Shown here: in pieces, positions 27,805 to 34,114 of the stretch
How positions within the stretch are numbered: the stretch's first letter is position 1
Layout of the letters: the number at the start of each line of letters is the position of its first letter
Assembly (NCBI RefSeq): GCF_014205275.1
Contig: NZ_JACHND010000001.1
Coordinates: forward strand, 4,960,001-5,024,000
Direction of reading: 5' to 3'
Source: Sphaerisporangium siamense
Lineage (GTDB): Bacteria > Actinomycetota > Actinomycetes > Streptosporangiales > Streptosporangiaceae
DNA length: 64,000 bases
Made by a program: the position numbers and the translations under genes
The notes under the pieces: generated by a model
Told to the model about the DNA's origin: nothing
Seen by the model: the letters and a program-made list of their open reading frames with translations, nothing else
Databases searched by the model: none

Positions 27805-30800
27805 GTGAAAACACGGTTACGCAGGGTTCGCACGTTAGGGAGCGCGTCGCTCACCGCCGTTCTCGGCTTATCGACGTCCCTGGTCGCGACGCCCGCCGCA
27901 GCTGCTTCACCGGTTCCGGCCCCCACGCCGGGCCGCGTGAGCGCGACCACGCCCCGGTCTTACTCCGCGGCCCCCGACCCGATACAGACGGCCCGGGAAC
28001 AAGCGAAACTCCAACATAAGCGCATTGAAGTCGAAAGCTTACGCACGGAGAACTCCACGACATTCGCCACCCCCGACGGCACGACATTCGCCACTTACGT
28101 CGAGGCCGCTCCCGTCCGATTCAAAAAAGACGGGACATGGCACGCGATCGACCTCACCCTCGTCCAGGACGGCGGCGCCGTACGGCCGAAGTCGATCAAA
28201 GACCAGGTGCGGCTGTCCGCGGGCGGGGACACCGCGCTCCTGACCGTCGAGGACGGCCGCGGCGAGACCAGGCTGTCGGCCCCCGCCACGCTGCCGAAGC
28301 CGGTGCTCGCCCGCAACACCGCCACCTATCCCTCGGCGTACGGACCCGGCACCGACCTGGTCATCGAGGCCACGCCTGCCGGGATCCTGCAGAAGATCGT
28401 CATCAGGCAACGTCCCGCCACCCCTCCCGCCTTCAGCCTGCCGATCGCCACCGGCGCCGGCCTGAAGTACCGCACCCAGGCCGGACGCGCCGAAGTGCTG
28501 GACGAGGGGAAGAGGGTCGCCGAGGTCGCCGCGCCGCTGCTGCTGGACGCCGAGGCGACCAGATCGATCACCACCGGGAGGATCGGCAAGGCCGAGGCCC
28601 GGCTCGACGCCGGCGGCGGACGGCTCACCTACACGCCCGACCCCGCCTTCCTCGCCGACCCGCGCACGACCTATCCGGTGACGCTGGCCGGCGACCCGAC
28701 CCCGTGGTACGGGCCCGGCTTCCCCACCGACGCGTTCGTCTCCGACGACTCCCGGTTCACGACCGGCCGTGCCACCCAGTACCGCCAGGAGATCCTGACC
28801 GGCCGCAACAACTTCGACGGCGGCGCCGGCCGTTACTACCGGTACCGCGGCTACATCAAGCACGACCTGACCAACGCGCCCTTCTACGGCCGGCGGATCA
28901 TCAACGCCGACCTGCGCCCGTGGAACTACATCACCACCGGCTGCGGCGCCAACGCCGGCGACATCGCGGCGCGCCGCGTCACCAGCGACTGGGCCCTCGA
29001 CTCCAGCAGCTCCCGCGACCTGCGCTGGGACAACCAGCCGTTGGTGACCACCAGCGGCGAGGGCGTCAAGGGCAGCGGCGTCGGGCGCATCATGAAGCGC
29101 GACGGCTCCTACGTGTACTGCAACGACCCCTCGGGGGAGGTCTACTACTCCATCGAGGGCGTCGTCCAGGCATGGGCCGACGGCGCGGCCAACTACGGCG
29201 TGCAACTCGCCGCGGTCAACGACGGCAGCGGGCCGTCGAACTACCGGGAGTACCTCTCCTCGGAATGGTCCGGCGTGGACGGCCGGGGTCCGGTGCTCTT
29301 CGTCGAGTACGAGGAGCCGGTCCCTGAGGAGTTCGACATCGCCTACGAACGCGACGGCGTCCCCGACGACAGGCTGCCGACGTACGAGGAACTGCTCGCC
29401 GACGAGATCCCGCAGTCCGACGTCCGTCCCGCCCCGGAGACGGTGACCGTCGCCGAGGCGGCGGTCCGGCAGAGCGATTCCGGGCAGACCTTCGAGGTGG
29501 AAAGCGACACGCTGCCCGACACGACGATCTCCCCGATCGGCTCGGACCCCGAGTCGGCCCCGCCCACGGTGGCCGGCACCGACCCCGCCTCCGGCGAGAC
29601 CGAGATCGCCGTCACCACCCCCGTCCGCGTGACGTTCAGCAAGCCCGTGACCGGCGCGCGGATCGAGCTCAAGGACCCGGCGGGAACGGTCGTGCAGGGC
29701 GCGCTGACCACGAACCCGGCCGGTGACGTGTGGCGGTTCACCCCGCAGGGCACGCTCGCCGGAGAGACGACGTACCAGGCCTCCGTGACCGGGGCCACGG
29801 ACGCCGACGGCATCGAGGCCGCGCCCTATTCGTGGTCGTTCACCACGATTCCGGTGGACTCCACCGTCCCGGCGGTCACCGCCACGGACCCGTCCTCCGG
29901 CGCCACGGAGGTTCCACTGACCGCCCCGATCCGCGCGACCTTCAGCGAACCGGTCACCGGCGCCGTGTTCACGGTCGAGGACGGCGCGGGGACCGCCGTG
30001 CCGGGAAGCCTGACCGCGGCCGGTGACGGGAAGGTGTGGACGTTCACCCCCGCGGCGCCGCTCGCCTGGAACGCCGCCTACACGGTCGGCGTGACCGCCG
30101 CCAGGGACGCCTCCGGCAACATGATGGCGCCGTACACCTGGTCGTTCGCCACGGTGACCGACCACACGGCCCCCGCCGTGACGCGCACCGTCCCGGCCAA
30201 GGACGCCACCGGCGTCAAGGTGATCGACCCGATCGTGGTGACGTTCGGCGAGCCCGTCTACGACGTGCGGATCGTCGTCAAGGACGCGGCCGGCACGCCG
30301 GTCGCCGGCACGGTCGCAGCCGGGGCGCGTGACGACGAATGGTCGTTCACGCCCACGGCGCCGCTGGCCGCCGACACCGTTCACACCGCGGAGGTGTCCG
30401 GTGGCAGGGACGCCGCCGGCAACACCATGACCGGCCACACCTGGTCGTTCACGACCGCGCCGCCCGACACGACACCACCCACGGTGAGCGGGACGAACCC
30501 GGCCAGGGACGCCACCGAGACCGAGGTGGGCGCCCCCGTCCTGGTGACCTTCAGCGAACCCGTGACCGGCGCGCAGATCACGGTCAAGGGCCCCTCGGGC
30601 GCCGCGGTCGCGGGCACCGCGACCGCGACCTCACCGGCCACCCTGTCCTTCGTCCCCTCCGCGCCCCTCGCCGGGACGACCAGGTACACCGCCGAGGTGA
30701 CCGGGGCCAAGGACGGCGCCGGCAACACCATGACGGCCTATACCTGGTCCTTCACGACCGGCGAGCCGCCGGTGCCGCCCGACGCGCCCCGCGTGTCGGA

Positions 30801-33441
30801 CGAGTACGTGTCCCCGTCCGACGAGACGGGGGATGTCACCTCCTCGGCGGTGCCGTCGTTCGGCGGCCGGGTGAGTGATCCCGCTGGGCGTAGTTCGACG
30901 CTGACGGTCCAGGTGGAGCACGATCCGTCCGTTCCGGCGCAGGGCAGCGGGTTGATCTGGTCGGGGACGAGTGGTGCGACCGCGTCCGGTTCGTATGCCT
31001 CGGTGACGATCGCTTCGGGCAGGTTGTCGGACGGGTGGAAGCTGCGCTGGCGTGCTCGTGCCACGGCCGGGGGTGTGAACGGGGCTTGGACGAGTTGGCA
31101 CACGCTGACGGTGGATGTGTCCAAGCCGAGTGTGTCGGATGAGTACGTGTCCCCGTCCGACGAGACGGGGGATGTCACCTCCTCGGCGGTGCCGTCTTTC
31201 GGTGGCCGAGTGAGTGATCCGGACGGGCGTAGTTCGACGCTGACGGTTCAGGTGGAGCATGATCCGTCTGTTCCGGCACAGGGGAGCGGGTTGATCTGGT
31301 CGGGGACCAGTACCTCGACGTTCCCCGGTTCCTACGCCTCGGTGACGGTTCCCTCGGGGAAGCTGTCGGACGGGTGGAAGCTGCGCTGGCGTGCTCGCGC
31401 GACGGCCGGGGGCGTGAACGGCGCCTGGACGGACTGGCACACGTTGACGGTGGATGTGTCCAAGCCGAGTGTGTCGGATGAGTACGTGTCCCCCTCCAAC
31501 GAGACGGGGGATGTCACCTCCTCGGCGGTGCCCTCGTTCGGCGGTCAGGTGGACGACCCGGACGGGCGTAGTTCGACGCTGACCGTCCAGGTGGAGCATG
31601 ATCCGTCTGTTCCGGCACAGGGCAGCGGGTTGATCTGGTCGGGGACCAGTACCTCGACGTTCCCCGGTTCCTACGCCTCGGTGACGGTTCCCTCGGGGAA
31701 GCTGTCGGACGGGTGGAAGCTGCGCTGGCGTGCTCGCGCGACGGCCGGGGGCGTGAACGGCGCCTGGACGGACTGGCACACGTTGACGGTGGATGTGTCG
31801 AAGCCGAGTGTGTCGGATGAGTACGTGTCCCCCTCCAACCAGGCAGGCAATGTCACCACCTCGCTGACGCCGTCGTTCGGCGGTCAGATGGACGACCCGG
31901 ACGGGCGTAGCTCGACGCTGACCGTCCAGGTGGAGCACGATCCGGCCGTTCCGGCGCAGGGCAGCGGGCTGATCTGGTCGGGGACCAGCAGTGCCACCGC
32001 GCCCGGTTCCTACGCCTCGGTGACGGTTCCCTCGGGCAGGCTGTCCAAGGGGTGGAAGCTGCGCTGGCGCGCGCGGGGCAACGCCGGTGGTGTGAGCGGC
32101 GCGTGGACCGCCTGGCACGGCCTGGCCGTGAGCGCGACCGCGACGGCGGCGGGGCGGTCCGTGCCCTCCGCCGCGGGCACGGCGAACGCGGCGGCGGCCG
32201 CCGCGGCGGGCGACTCGGCGCCGTGGCCGACCTTGCCCGACAAGCGCGTCCACTTCAGTGACTGCTGGGTGAACAAACAGGCCGGCAGCAAGAGGACCTA
32301 CCCCCATGGATGGGTGCGCGACGGCTACAACTGGTGCTCCTACCGCACGGTGGGCAAGGCGCGGACCCAGAAGACCAAGACCACGGACCCGTGCGGCTGC
32401 AAGTACGAGTACAAGGTGAAGGGCAAGCTCGAATTCCTGTTCAGCGTGGCCGCCTACACCTACGCCGGTGGCATGAAGATCTTCAAGAAACTTCCCGGCC
32501 CCAACGCCGAGAAGGCCACCGACGAGAACCGCACCGTGATCAACAGCCGTACCGTCAAGGTCTGGACGCGCGTCGACGACATCCGCGTGTCCGGCGCCGG
32601 GGGAGCGACCATCTGGCCGGAGTCCACCATGCTCACGGTGGACATGGGCTTCTTCGGCCAGGGCTGCCAGCAGACGGGCGGTCAGACGCAGAGGCGGACC
32701 CTCGCGGAGTGGAGGAACGACAGCGTCAAGCAGTCCTACTTCCAGTACTTCTCCGACAAGGCCGCGAGCCGCGGGCCGCACAAACTGGCCGTCTGCACGA
32801 TGCAGCCGTACCTGGCGGCGGGCACCGGCTACATGCCGTACATCAACTCCAAGATGGCCGACATGCCGGTGCGCTGCGACACCTCCGAGACGCTCGCCCA
32901 GCGGTACGGGGGCTGTGTGTTCGTCGAGTACACGCCGTCGTTCAAGAGTCCGCTGATCTACAAGAGCGAGGAGGGGGTTCCGTACGCGAACGAGTCCGCC
33001 TACCTCATACGGAAAGCCCTGACCGAGAACTCGGCGACGCCCCAGGACGACAGGACGTTCCCCCGTAAGGCGGGGAAGGTCATCCCGGGGCTCAAGGAGA
33101 AGAACCTTCCGCTGCACCGTACGGCCAGCGAGGAGAGGGACGAGGACAACCGGGATGAATCAAGGGCCTACTGTGCCGAGATGCTCAGGATTCTGAAGTT
33201 GCCCAAGCCGTCCGGTCACGACTGTGACGAGTATCCCTTCGCCGCGACGCACGAAGGCTCGGCGGGGGACGACACGGATCGCAACGTGGCGGTCGAGTAC
33301 GTGGACGAAGGCCACAACCGGTCGGTCGGCAGCAAGCTCGGATGGTTCTTCCAGGACTTCCGCGTCTTCGGCTACCACGCCGAGACGGGCGCGGACGAGC
33401 GGCACGCGTTCGAACGCTTCTATGTGAAGATTCCTGAATAA
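27805..33441 (+). CDS. Giant secreted multidomain protein with C-terminal NucA/NucB-like DNase motif
   Basis: This 1878-residue protein begins at a GTG after GAAAGGG. Residues 1-34 are a signal peptide ending PAAAAS. A region with Lys/Val-rich strands leads to a DNRLRE-like domain (about 340-500; YRGYIKHDLTNAPF, WNYITTGCG). Residues about 582-989 hold four Big_5-type Ig repeats (VTFSEPVTGA, YTWSFTT). Residues 997-1440 hold four 113-residue repeats, and an Ala-rich hinge precedes the C-terminal 400 residues. That tail is Cys- and Lys-rich and contains CAEMLR and CDEYPFAATHEGS (residues 1807-1819), the signature of NucA/NucB secreted DNases, where the acidic residues are catalytic. The architecture is that of a polymorphic toxin or cell-surface nuclease. 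The DUF6461-like gene directly downstream fits an immunity protein. Confidence 0.85.
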   Translation: MKTRLRRVRTLGSASLTAVLGLSTSLVATPAAAASPVPAPTPGRVSATTPRSYSAAPDPIQTAREQAKLQHKRIEVESLRTENSTTFATPDGTTFATYVEAAPVRFKKDGTWHAIDLTLVQDGGAVRPKSIKDQVRLSAGGDTALLTVEDGRGETRLSAPATLPKPVLARNTATYPSAYGPGTDLVIEATPAGILQKIVIRQRPATPPAFSLPIATGAGLKYRTQAGRAEVLDEGKRVAEVAAPLLLDAEATRSITTGRIGKAEARLDAGGGRLTYTPDPAFLADPRTTYPVTLAGDPTPWYGPGFPTDAFVSDDSRFTTGRATQYRQEILTGRNNFDGGAGRYYRYRGYIKHDLTNAPFYGRRIINADLRPWNYITTGCGANAGDIAARRVTSDWALDSSSSRDLRWDNQPLVTTSGEGVKGSGVGRIMKRDGSYVYCNDPSGEVYYSIEGVVQAWADGAANYGVQLAAVNDGSGPSNYREYLSSEWSGVDGRGPVLFVEYEEPVPEEFDIAYERDGVPDDRLPTYEELLADEIPQSDVRPAPETVTVAEAAVRQSDSGQTFEVESDTLPDTTISPIGSDPESAPPTVAGTDPASGETEIAVTTPVRVTFSKPVTGARIELKDPAGTVVQGALTTNPAGDVWRFTPQGTLAGETTYQASVTGATDADGIEAAPYSWSFTTIPVDSTVPAVTATDPSSGATEVPLTAPIRATFSEPVTGAVFTVEDGAGTAVPGSLTAAGDGKVWTFTPAAPLAWNAAYTVGVTAARDASGNMMAPYTWSFATVTDHTAPAVTRTVPAKDATGVKVIDPIVVTFGEPVYDVRIVVKDAAGTPVAGTVAAGARDDEWSFTPTAPLAADTVHTAEVSGGRDAAGNTMTGHTWSFTTAPPDTTPPTVSGTNPARDATETEVGAPVLVTFSEPVTGAQITVKGPSGAAVAGTATATSPATLSFVPSAPLAGTTRYTAEVTGAKDGAGNTMTAYTWSFTTGEPPVPPDAPRVSDEYVSPSDETGDVTSSAVPSFGGRVSDPAGRSSTLTVQVEHDPSVPAQGSGLIWSGTSGATASGSYASVTIASGRLSDGWKLRWRARATAGGVNGAWTSWHTLTVDVSKPSVSDEYVSPSDETGDVTSSAVPSFGGRVSDPDGRSSTLTVQVEHDPSVPAQGSGLIWSGTSTSTFPGSYASVTVPSGKLSDGWKLRWRARATAGGVNGAWTDWHTLTVDVSKPSVSDEYVSPSNETGDVTSSAVPSFGGQVDDPDGRSSTLTVQVEHDPSVPAQGSGLIWSGTSTSTFPGSYASVTVPSGKLSDGWKLRWRARATAGGVNGAWTDWHTLTVDVSKPSVSDEYVSPSNQAGNVTTSLTPSFGGQMDDPDGRSSTLTVQVEHDPAVPAQGSGLIWSGTSSATAPGSYASVTVPSGRLSKGWKLRWRARGNAGGVSGAWTAWHGLAVSATATAAGRSVPSAAGTANAAAAAAAGDSAPWPTLPDKRVHFSDCWVNKQAGSKRTYPHGWVRDGYNWCSYRTVGKARTQKTKTTDPCGCKYEYKVKGKLEFLFSVAAYTYAGGMKIFKKLPGPNAEKATDENRTVINSRTVKVWTRVDDIRVSGAGGATIWPESTMLTVDMGFFGQGCQQTGGQTQRRTLAEWRNDSVKQSYFQYFSDKAASRGPHKLAVCTMQPYLAAGTGYMPYINSKMADMPVRCDTSETLAQRYGGCVFVEYTPSFKSPLIYKSEEGVPYANESAYLIRKALTENSATPQDDRTFPRKAGKVIPGLKEKNLPLHRTASEERDEDNRDESRAYCAEMLRILKLPKPSGHDCDEYPFAATHEGSAGDDTDRNVAVEYVDEGHNRSVGSKLGWFFQDFRVFGYHAETGADERHAFERFYVKIPE
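29547..30770 (+). repeat. Four Ig-like Big_5 repeats (about 102 codons each) in the secreted nuclease gene
   Basis: Units begin at about 29547, 29856, 30160 and 30466. Each has the pattern PxVxxTxPxxxATxV followed by VTFSEPV and ends TYxWSFTT. DNA identity between units is moderate, so these are older duplications than the 113-codon repeats that follow. Confidence 0.75.
30793..32130 (+). repeat. Four 339-bp tandem repeats (113 codons) in the secreted nuclease gene
   Basis: Units start at 30793, 31132, 31471 and 31810, each opening with VSDEYVSPS and ending WHTLTVDVSKPS; the fourth is slightly shorter and diverged at its end. Unit spacing is exactly 339 bp. Units 2 and 3 share an uninterrupted 176-bp identical stretch (31285-31460 and 31624-31799), showing recent duplication or gene conversion. 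Confidence 0.9.
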
Positions 33442-33449
33442 AAGTCTCG

Positions 33450-33505
33450 GCGACGGCCGGTCTTCCGCGGGCATCGGTGTCATCCCCGCGGGAGCCGGCC
33501 GTCGC
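33450..33505. terminator. Inverted repeat between nuclease and putative immunity gene
   Basis: GCGACGGCCGG at 33450-33460 pairs perfectly with 33495-33505; within the loop CCGCGGG and CCCGCGG can pair as well. It may be a terminator or attenuator for the nuclease gene, or a processing site, ahead of the GGAGGA site at 33517-33522 of the next gene. Confidence 0.5.
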
Positions 33506-33526
33506 TCCCTTCCATCGGAGGAAGCA

Positions 33527-34114
33527 GTGCCCGACGCGGTGGAGCCCTCCTACCGGCACCTGCTCGACTCGTACGACTTCCAGATGCGCGACATCTGTGT
33601 CACCTGGGCGCCGGGCACGGACGCCGGCGATCTGGCGGAGGCCCTCGGCGCGGATCCGTCGACGGCCGCGTCGAAAGTCCTCGAGGACGCCTACGACGAG
33701 TCCTACGAGCGGGCGGTGTCAGGCGAAGGGCCGAATCCGCTGCTCGTCGGGCGGGCCGGGGCATGGCTCGTCGCGCTGGAGCCGCTGGCCTCGGCGGGAC
33801 GCCGCAGGCTCGCGACGCTTTCGGCCGGAGGGGAGGCCTGCTGCCTAACCGTTGGCCAGGGGTCGTACTGTTCGTTCTACTACGCGCGCGACGGCGCGCT
33901 CGTGTGCCGTCTCGTCCGGCTCGACGACCCCGAGGGGGACACGCGCCCGCTCGAACGGCATCTCGCGGGCCTCCGCCTGCTGGACAAGGTCACGTTCGGG
34001 GTCTGGCTGACGCACGCCTTCCTGCTGGCCGAGCGGATCACCGGCGTGCACCTGGGGGAGGACTGGTTCTCCGACGAGCACACCCGCTATTTCCACCGCG
34101 GCGCCGGGGCGTGA
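33527..34114 (+). CDS. DUF6461-like protein, candidate immunity protein of the upstream nuclease
   Basis: This 195-residue soluble acidic protein has no signal peptide or membrane segment. It starts HLLDSYDFQMRDICVTWAPG and has GRAGAWLVALEPL and a late WLTHAFLLAERITGVHL segment, features I associate with DUF6461, a family frequent in actinobacteria and often next to toxin-like genes. The GTG start follows GGAGGA by four bases. It sits 85 bases after the secreted nuclease gene on the same strand, the position expected of an immunity gene. That role is inferred from context and small acidic nature only. Confidence 0.6.
   Translation: MPDAVEPSYRHLLDSYDFQMRDICVTWAPGTDAGDLAEALGADPSTAASKVLEDAYDESYERAVSGEGPNPLLVGRAGAWLVALEPLASAGRRRLATLSAGGEACCLTVGQGSYCSFYYARDGALVCRLVRLDDPEGDTRPLERHLAGLRLLDKVTFGVWLTHAFLLAERITGVHLGEDWFSDEHTRYFHRGAGA

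Follow-up and report, generated by a model that had tools for sequence, protein, structure and literature searches.

A predicted NucA/NucB-type polymorphic toxin and its DUF6461 partner gene in Sphaerisporangium siamense

Introduction

The genome of Sphaerisporangium siamense (8.5 Mb; RefSeq assembly GCF_014205275.1) encodes a protein of 1878 residues with a long repeat stalk, followed after a gap of 85 bases by a small gene of the DUF6461 family. Does this pair represent a toxin and the immunity gene that protects its producer, and if so, how does it relate to the polymorphic toxins already known? We addressed the question in a window of 64,000 nucleotides (contig NZ_JACHND010000001.1, positions 4,960,001 to 5,024,000 of the forward strand), to which all coordinates refer unless a locus is named; L numbers designate loci and P numbers proteins of our comparison sets. 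A preliminary description had proposed a NucB-type polymorphic toxin with a DUF6461-like immunity gene. We consider it probable (roughly 77%) that the long protein is secreted and serves as a polymorphic toxin, with a NucA/NucB tail predicted to cut the DNA of competitors, and that the downstream DUF6461 protein provides immunity.

Results

A NucA/NucB-type nuclease tail

Profile score, catalytic residues and predicted fold agree on a C-terminal nuclease of the NucA/NucB type, as had been proposed. PF14040 scores 35.0 bits against the whole protein and 37.4 against the tail alone (Pfam cut-off 23.8); the catalytic Asp-Glu pair, within the CDEYPFA motif that had been read there (33223-33243), and the metal-binding Asn align with NucB chains, if weakly (E 0.45), and the modelled structure of the tail matches the NucB beta-beta-alpha fold. 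These D-E-N residues are invariant in 14 of 14 and in 36 of 36 aligned tails. The tail was rightly called Cys-rich: its 10 Cys include six that do not vary among the 14 aligned tails and two (C315 and C332, both in the NucB domain) that do not vary among the 36. Ahead of the NucB domain lies a conserved Cys-bearing beta-sandwich of ~230 residues (32230-32928), which recurs in 13 full-cover relatives and whose role is possibly entry.

Matches to the window tail are found in 119 of the 341 genomes of the host's family, many of them partial. The host genome itself has two PF14040 places only, the other being a NucB-tailed gene of 459 residues (L140:6246-7625) that lacks a downstream partner gene.

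The DUF6461 partner and its linkage to the tail

The product of the small gene was described as acidic and DUF6461-like, and both attributes hold, with an isoelectric point (pI) of 4.9 and a match to PF20062 that is above the Pfam cut-off, as PF14040 is for the tail, if narrowly (24.4 bits; cut-off 23.2). It has no hydrophobic N-terminus. Among 18 DUF6461 partners the pI ranges from 4.1 to 5.6, and the highest 19-residue mean of hydrophobicity within the N-terminal 45 residues is below 1.0 in 16 and 1.27-1.29 in two, versus 1.51 in the toxin, values expected of proteins that are likely, for the most part, to be cytoplasmic. PF20062 matches 17 of the 18 at E up to 1; Pfam detected no other domain in them, DNA-binding domains, ComJ and SUKH included, the last also being sought in a limited fold comparison. 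Homologues of the window DUF6461 protein are found in 113 of the 341 genomes, and elsewhere in the host genome there are 8 DUF6461 matches at seven places (L141-L147), all without a NucB-tail neighbour. A long form of the partner, with ~150 extra C-terminal residues, is encoded at L040, L046, L047, L073, L084, L087 and L114.

Linkage was measured on the same strand between 150 listed tail places and 150 listed DUF6461 places in the 341 genomes, with the window's own DUF6461 sequence as query, and hence without circularity. Among the matches listed, and counting the window, 31 of the 150 tails have a DUF6461 homologue 33-482 bp past the matched stretch, against ~0.01 expected under random placement; so do all 11 of the best-scoring tails listed. 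A second set, mostly of named genomes, comprised 92 loci, of which 80 gave 82 tail-bearing genes whose downstream sequence was searched in six frames; the other 12, lacking a called tail gene, were nine Bacillota loci, L048, L056 and L111. The six-frame search recovered some DUF6461 genes that gene calling had not seen (for example at L041), and at L066 the downstream sequence amounts to just 229 bases. DUF6461 accompanies 23 of the 82 genes, a second family that we call A3 accompanies 39, and 20 have neither; none has both. These counts are partly circular, as the A2 and A3 profiles were made from downstream genes of the same set, with 5 of the 23 DUF6461 rows and 21 of the 39 A3 rows lying outside the profiles. 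At the nine Bacillota loci, which have NucB-like tails, a view of the longest open reading frames (ORFs) gave no co-directional ORF of at least 100 residues within 250 bp.

The survey of tail neighbours that the preliminary description had suggested thus finds DUF6461 linked to the tail in other genomes and across genera, and the sequence comparisons indicate a dedicated small partner gene, directly downstream and co-inherited with the tail.

Partner type largely follows tail type

A quick tree was calculated from 80 of the 82 tails (two without the motif were dropped), with the caveat that near-copies from Streptomyces inflate its order. The window tail falls in a clade of 24 (Shimodaira-Hasegawa-like approximate likelihood ratio test, SH-aLRT, 93), of which 21 have DUF6461 and three no partner; at one of these three, L049 (identical with L130), a DUF6461 gene lies instead on the upstream side, 240 bp ahead of the start called for the toxin. 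A clade of 26 tails (24 from Streptomyces, one each from Couchioplanes and Actinoplanes) is associated with A3 throughout. The 62 partnered rows require three partner changes on the tail tree, and with partnerless rows as a third label none of 200 shuffles was as ordered as the tail tree. On this basis, partner type largely tracks tail type.

The A3 proteins have ~175 residues, with an additional 150-residue form in Streptosporangiaceae, and gave no convincing Pfam match in the 18 tested; we predict that they constitute a second immunity family for NucB-type nucleases. At L061-L118, mostly from Streptomyces (for example L082:10703-11230), the NucB-tailed genes, many of them encoding ~430 residues, are followed by an A3 gene, often 14-20 bp on.

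Related N-termini carry different tails

The N-terminal module had been called DNRLRE-like. The Pfam model CBM96 (DNRLRE) has no direct match in the long protein at E up to 1, but the likeness stands by way of homologues: the module can be aligned with parts of P0052 and P0057 in which their CBM96 domains lie, and residues about 337-504 show 29-37% identity to the CBM96 domains present in P0021 and P0024. When the best 7986 candidates were scored, residues 30-560 had at least 73 relatives at E up to 0.001, among which precomputed Pfam annotation places NucA/NucB in 32 and RHS domains in 22. The module of these 22 (among P0052-P0077) is homologous to that of the window protein, at 27-39% identity; they differ from it in their RHS domains, in some cases with a pretoxin HINT domain, and in having no match to the NucB tail.

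Kinship of the N-termini and kinship of the tails are discordant. The six closest N-termini besides P0016 (54-60% identity) carry tails with just 24-32% local identity to the window tail, and the seven closest tails (52-57%) are carried by N-termini of 34-44% identity. For P0003 the N-terminal identity was calculated over 105 residues. P0016 agrees with residues 135-1294 of the window protein at 99.9% identity and breaks off within the repeats, and was therefore treated as a truncated record of this very gene. The discordance points to tail exchange, with tails moving between backbones to give variable C-termini on related N-termini, as would be expected of polymorphic toxins.

The partner gene persists where the toxin has decayed

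At L190, a locus of S. album, the same place is bounded by the 5' part of the aldo/keto reductase gene and by a DUF6461 gene, but the toxin gene has been lost from it; its remnants, near the 3' end, are 56 bases matching 33010-33065 of the window and the last bases from 33405 on. The DUF6461 gene is an intact ORF of ~79% identity, and its ratio of nonsynonymous to synonymous substitution rates (dN/dS) is 0.23 over 191 codons, a figure that tempers the argument in that it cannot separate selection before the loss from selection after it. An open DUF6461 frame also stands after a tail that is broken into fragments or interrupted at four further loci, namely L200 (likewise from S. album), L201, L202 (close to the end of a contig) and L203. 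Toxin remnants of this kind next to partner genes are reminiscent of the Rhs orphans to which the accessible text of PMC12704120 refers. Retention of DUF6461 after toxin loss suggests that it protects against something other than the cell's own enzyme.

Discussion

A proposed mechanism and its alternatives

In the mechanism we propose, the long protein would be exported by Sec and displayed on, or released from, the producer hypha, with the Big_5/113-residue stalk holding the nuclease off the hypha or on its surface. The tail would enter neighbouring, probably related, actinomycetes and cleave DNA inside the target cell in a metal-dependent manner; in the producer and its sister cells DUF6461 would bind the NucB domain and neutralise it in the cytoplasm. 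The NucB tail, the repeat stalk, the tail exchange and the linked partner all support the polymorphic-toxin layout that had been proposed. At the level of sequence, neither of the results named beforehand as speaking against it was obtained, namely a tail unlike NucA/NucB or a small gene unlinked to this tail elsewhere.

Several observations weigh against this mechanism. No entry route is visible in the toxin; should the tail Cys pair up in disulfide bonds, the fold may be better adapted to conditions outside the cell than to those of a cytoplasm. Toxin activity and DUF6461 protection are both predicted from sequence, and the DUF6461 model found no close match among solved structures in a comparison that was not exhaustive. 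Two of the 23 DUF6461-partnered tails (L086 and L100) fall outside the DUF6461 clade, and in the comparison of the 341 genomes two tail-DUF6461 pairs within 1.5 kb, beyond the 31 counted, lie on opposite strands. Among the matches listed, 119 of the 150 DUF6461 homologues (ten strong ones were inspected) are not beside such a tail, nor are the DUF6461 genes at the seven other places in this genome; pairing with NucB is thus confined to part of the DUF6461 family. L140 is among the 20 tail-bearing genes with neither partner, which indicates that a NucB tail by itself does not require one. The strong hairpin between the two genes, described below, leaves their co-transcription open.

We weighed three other explanations. 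The protein might be a DNase, attached to the wall or released, whose task is to break down extracellular DNA, be it as food or in matrix turnover; DUF6461 would then do no more than shield the cytoplasm of the producer itself from enzyme that has folded ahead of its export. Such a role would suit the Cys-rich tail, a lectin-like and carbohydrate-binding-like build that could serve adhesion, and the existence of partnerless NucB genes, one of them in this genome; Bacillus NucB is a secreted, biofilm-dispersing nuclease (PMC5758888, accessible text). We nevertheless hold it to be unlikely, since a shield against the cell's own enzyme would not account for DUF6461 kept after toxin loss, and since partner type largely tracks tail type, tails and N-termini disagree in kinship, related N-termini carry RHS builds, and the longest-ORF view of the nine Bacillota loci shows no co-directional ORF of at least 100 residues within 250 bp. 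Far less probable is that DUF6461 is a specific partner which serves the toxin gene as chaperone or regulator instead of inhibiting its product: DUF6461 is the one family that Pfam finds in the 18 partners, with no DNA-binding domain, the gene persists without the toxin, and its place after the toxin gene fits known immunity genes, although the family is widespread without a NucB neighbour, so that its basic function may differ, and includes the longer form. We give almost no credence to DUF6461 being an unrelated neighbour, an idea which its abundance in these genomes might encourage and which the observed linkage contradicts.

Relation to known toxins and nucleases

We take ComI, NucA and PF14040 to be one family, and ComJ to be the same protein as Nin. 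In its accessible text, PMC3482391 counts Tox-ComI, which has a DE motif, among the domains that make up the tips of polymorphic toxins, actinobacterial ones included, with Imm-ComJ and Imm-SUKH as immunity proteins, ComI being the competence nuclease of Bacillus subtilis. The system described here resembles Tox-ComI in the DE dyad, in its position at the toxin tip in actinobacteria and others, and in having an inhibitor gene, here a predicted one, after the nuclease gene; it differs in its DUF6461 partner, which does not appear in the Tox-ComI row, and in having Big_5 and 113-residue repeats where that row has RHS repeats. WapA-CT1 of Streptococcus suis, in which DNRLRE and RHS precede a tip resembling NucB, proved toxic in E. 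coli, is partly neutralised by the neighbouring Imm1, and was shown to act in competition (PMC12704120, accessible text). WapA is exported by Sec, as the window protein may be from its signal-peptide-like start. DNRLRE near the N-terminus, here by way of homologues, and a NucB-like tip are common to both, and each has a gene for immunity beside it, here a predicted one; WapA also has RHS and LysM, neither found by Pfam in the window protein, and a sortase partner, for which no search was made at the window locus. Bacillus NucA and NucB share the nuclease fold and the catalytic D-E-N with the tail but are single-domain enzymes, and both are inhibited by Nin, which is encoded beside NucA (PMC5758888, accessible text). 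ComJ (PF11033) had no match at E up to 0.001 in 120 genomes of the host's family, with a positive B. subtilis control.

The view that the combination is unprecedented was therefore too strong, given Tox-ComI toxins and the DNRLRE-Rhs WapA of S. suis. Within the open-access literature we found no paper on DUF6461 and none naming a DUF6461 pair, most subscription papers lying outside the search, and neither the DUF6461 partner nor the Big_5/113-residue stalk was met in the accessible text of PMC3482391 or PMC12704120. The nuclease class is thus a known one; its partner family is apparently new, and the stalk has no RHS repeats. More tentatively, and at somewhat less than even odds, DUF6461 may be a new immunity family that replaces ComJ/Nin against NucA/NucB-type toxins in Actinomycetota, beside the unrelated-looking A3 of Streptomyces, and the toxins may form a class that lacks an RHS barrel, the part of the RHS shell being played by an Ig-like/lectin-like stalk together with the conserved Cys-bearing beta-sandwich ahead of the nuclease, which would bring the enzyme into the target.

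DUF6461 gains a predicted function from these natural experiments, namely linked pairs, partner types that follow the tails, and partners left after toxin loss. The very long proteins of this actinomycete family annotated as "DNRLRE," "LamG-like" or "Ig-like" gain a predicted role in bacterial rivalry, and entry into a hypha by a nuclease without an RHS barrel becomes a testable question.

Layout of the locus

The features of the locus are collected in Table 1, and the two ORFs, the gap and the ribosome-binding-site-like sequence ahead of the small gene are present as first reported. The first 45 residues of the long protein include a hydrophobic stretch with a 19-residue mean of 1.51. Pfam finds the four Big_5 repeats above its cut-off, at a spacing of 303-306 nt, and the four 113-residue repeats are equally borne out, with 300-nt copies at an exact spacing of 339 nt, of which copies 2-4 are 82-87% identical to the first at the DNA level. 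The RHS family has no Pfam match in the protein at E up to 1.

Table 1. Features of the toxin-DUF6461 locus in window coordinates.
Feature	Position	Strand	Basis or remark
Long ORF, 1878 residues, GTG start; likely secreted polymorphic toxin	27805..33441	+	ORF listing, sequence, Pfam
Likely Sec signal peptide, residues 1-34, MKTRLRR...LVATPAAAA	27805..27906	+	Sequence reading, hydrophobicity
N-terminal module, residues 30-560, with DNRLRE/CBM96-like part; common to RHS-repeat proteins	27892..29484	+	Homologue alignments
Four Big_5 Ig-like repeats	29548..30779	+	Pfam, repeat analysis
Four 113-residue repeats (339-nt units)	30786..32141	+	Repeat analysis
First part of tail (tail residues 1-233), predicted beta-sandwich	32230..32928	+	Search gave no convincing known relative
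NucB-fold nuclease domain (tail residues 235-402)	32932..33435	+	Pfam, NucB alignment, predicted fold
Asp1808-Glu1809, the DE of CDEYPFA (NucB Asp93-Glu94)	33226..33231	+	Alignments, PMC5758888 (accessible text)
Asn1838 (metal-binding NucB Asn117)	33316..33318	+	Alignments, PMC5758888 (accessible text)
Very stable GC hairpin in the intergenic segment, without T-run	33449..33506	+	Folding energy, terminator search
Ribosome-binding-site-like GGAGGAAG ahead of the DUF6461 GTG	33517..33524	+	Sequence reading
DUF6461 gene, 195 residues, GTG start; likely cytoplasmic immunity protein	33527..34114	+	Pfam, linkage, composition

The segment between the two genes folds at -52.9 kcal/mol (z -5.4), and no T-tailed terminator was found at this hairpin. 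Counterparts with z of -3.5 or lower are present in four of seven other folded loci (L042, L047, L050 and L051), that of L190 is weaker (z -0.9), and L043 and L073 have none comparable. Our guess, prompted by the missing T-run, is that the hairpin may partly end the toxin transcript and let DUF6461 be transcribed separately.

Finally, at L158 and L159 a DUF6461 gene follows another conserved small gene, ending ...DARAITGPPDIW or ...DARSITEQPDMW, an arrangement that is possibly a different pairing.
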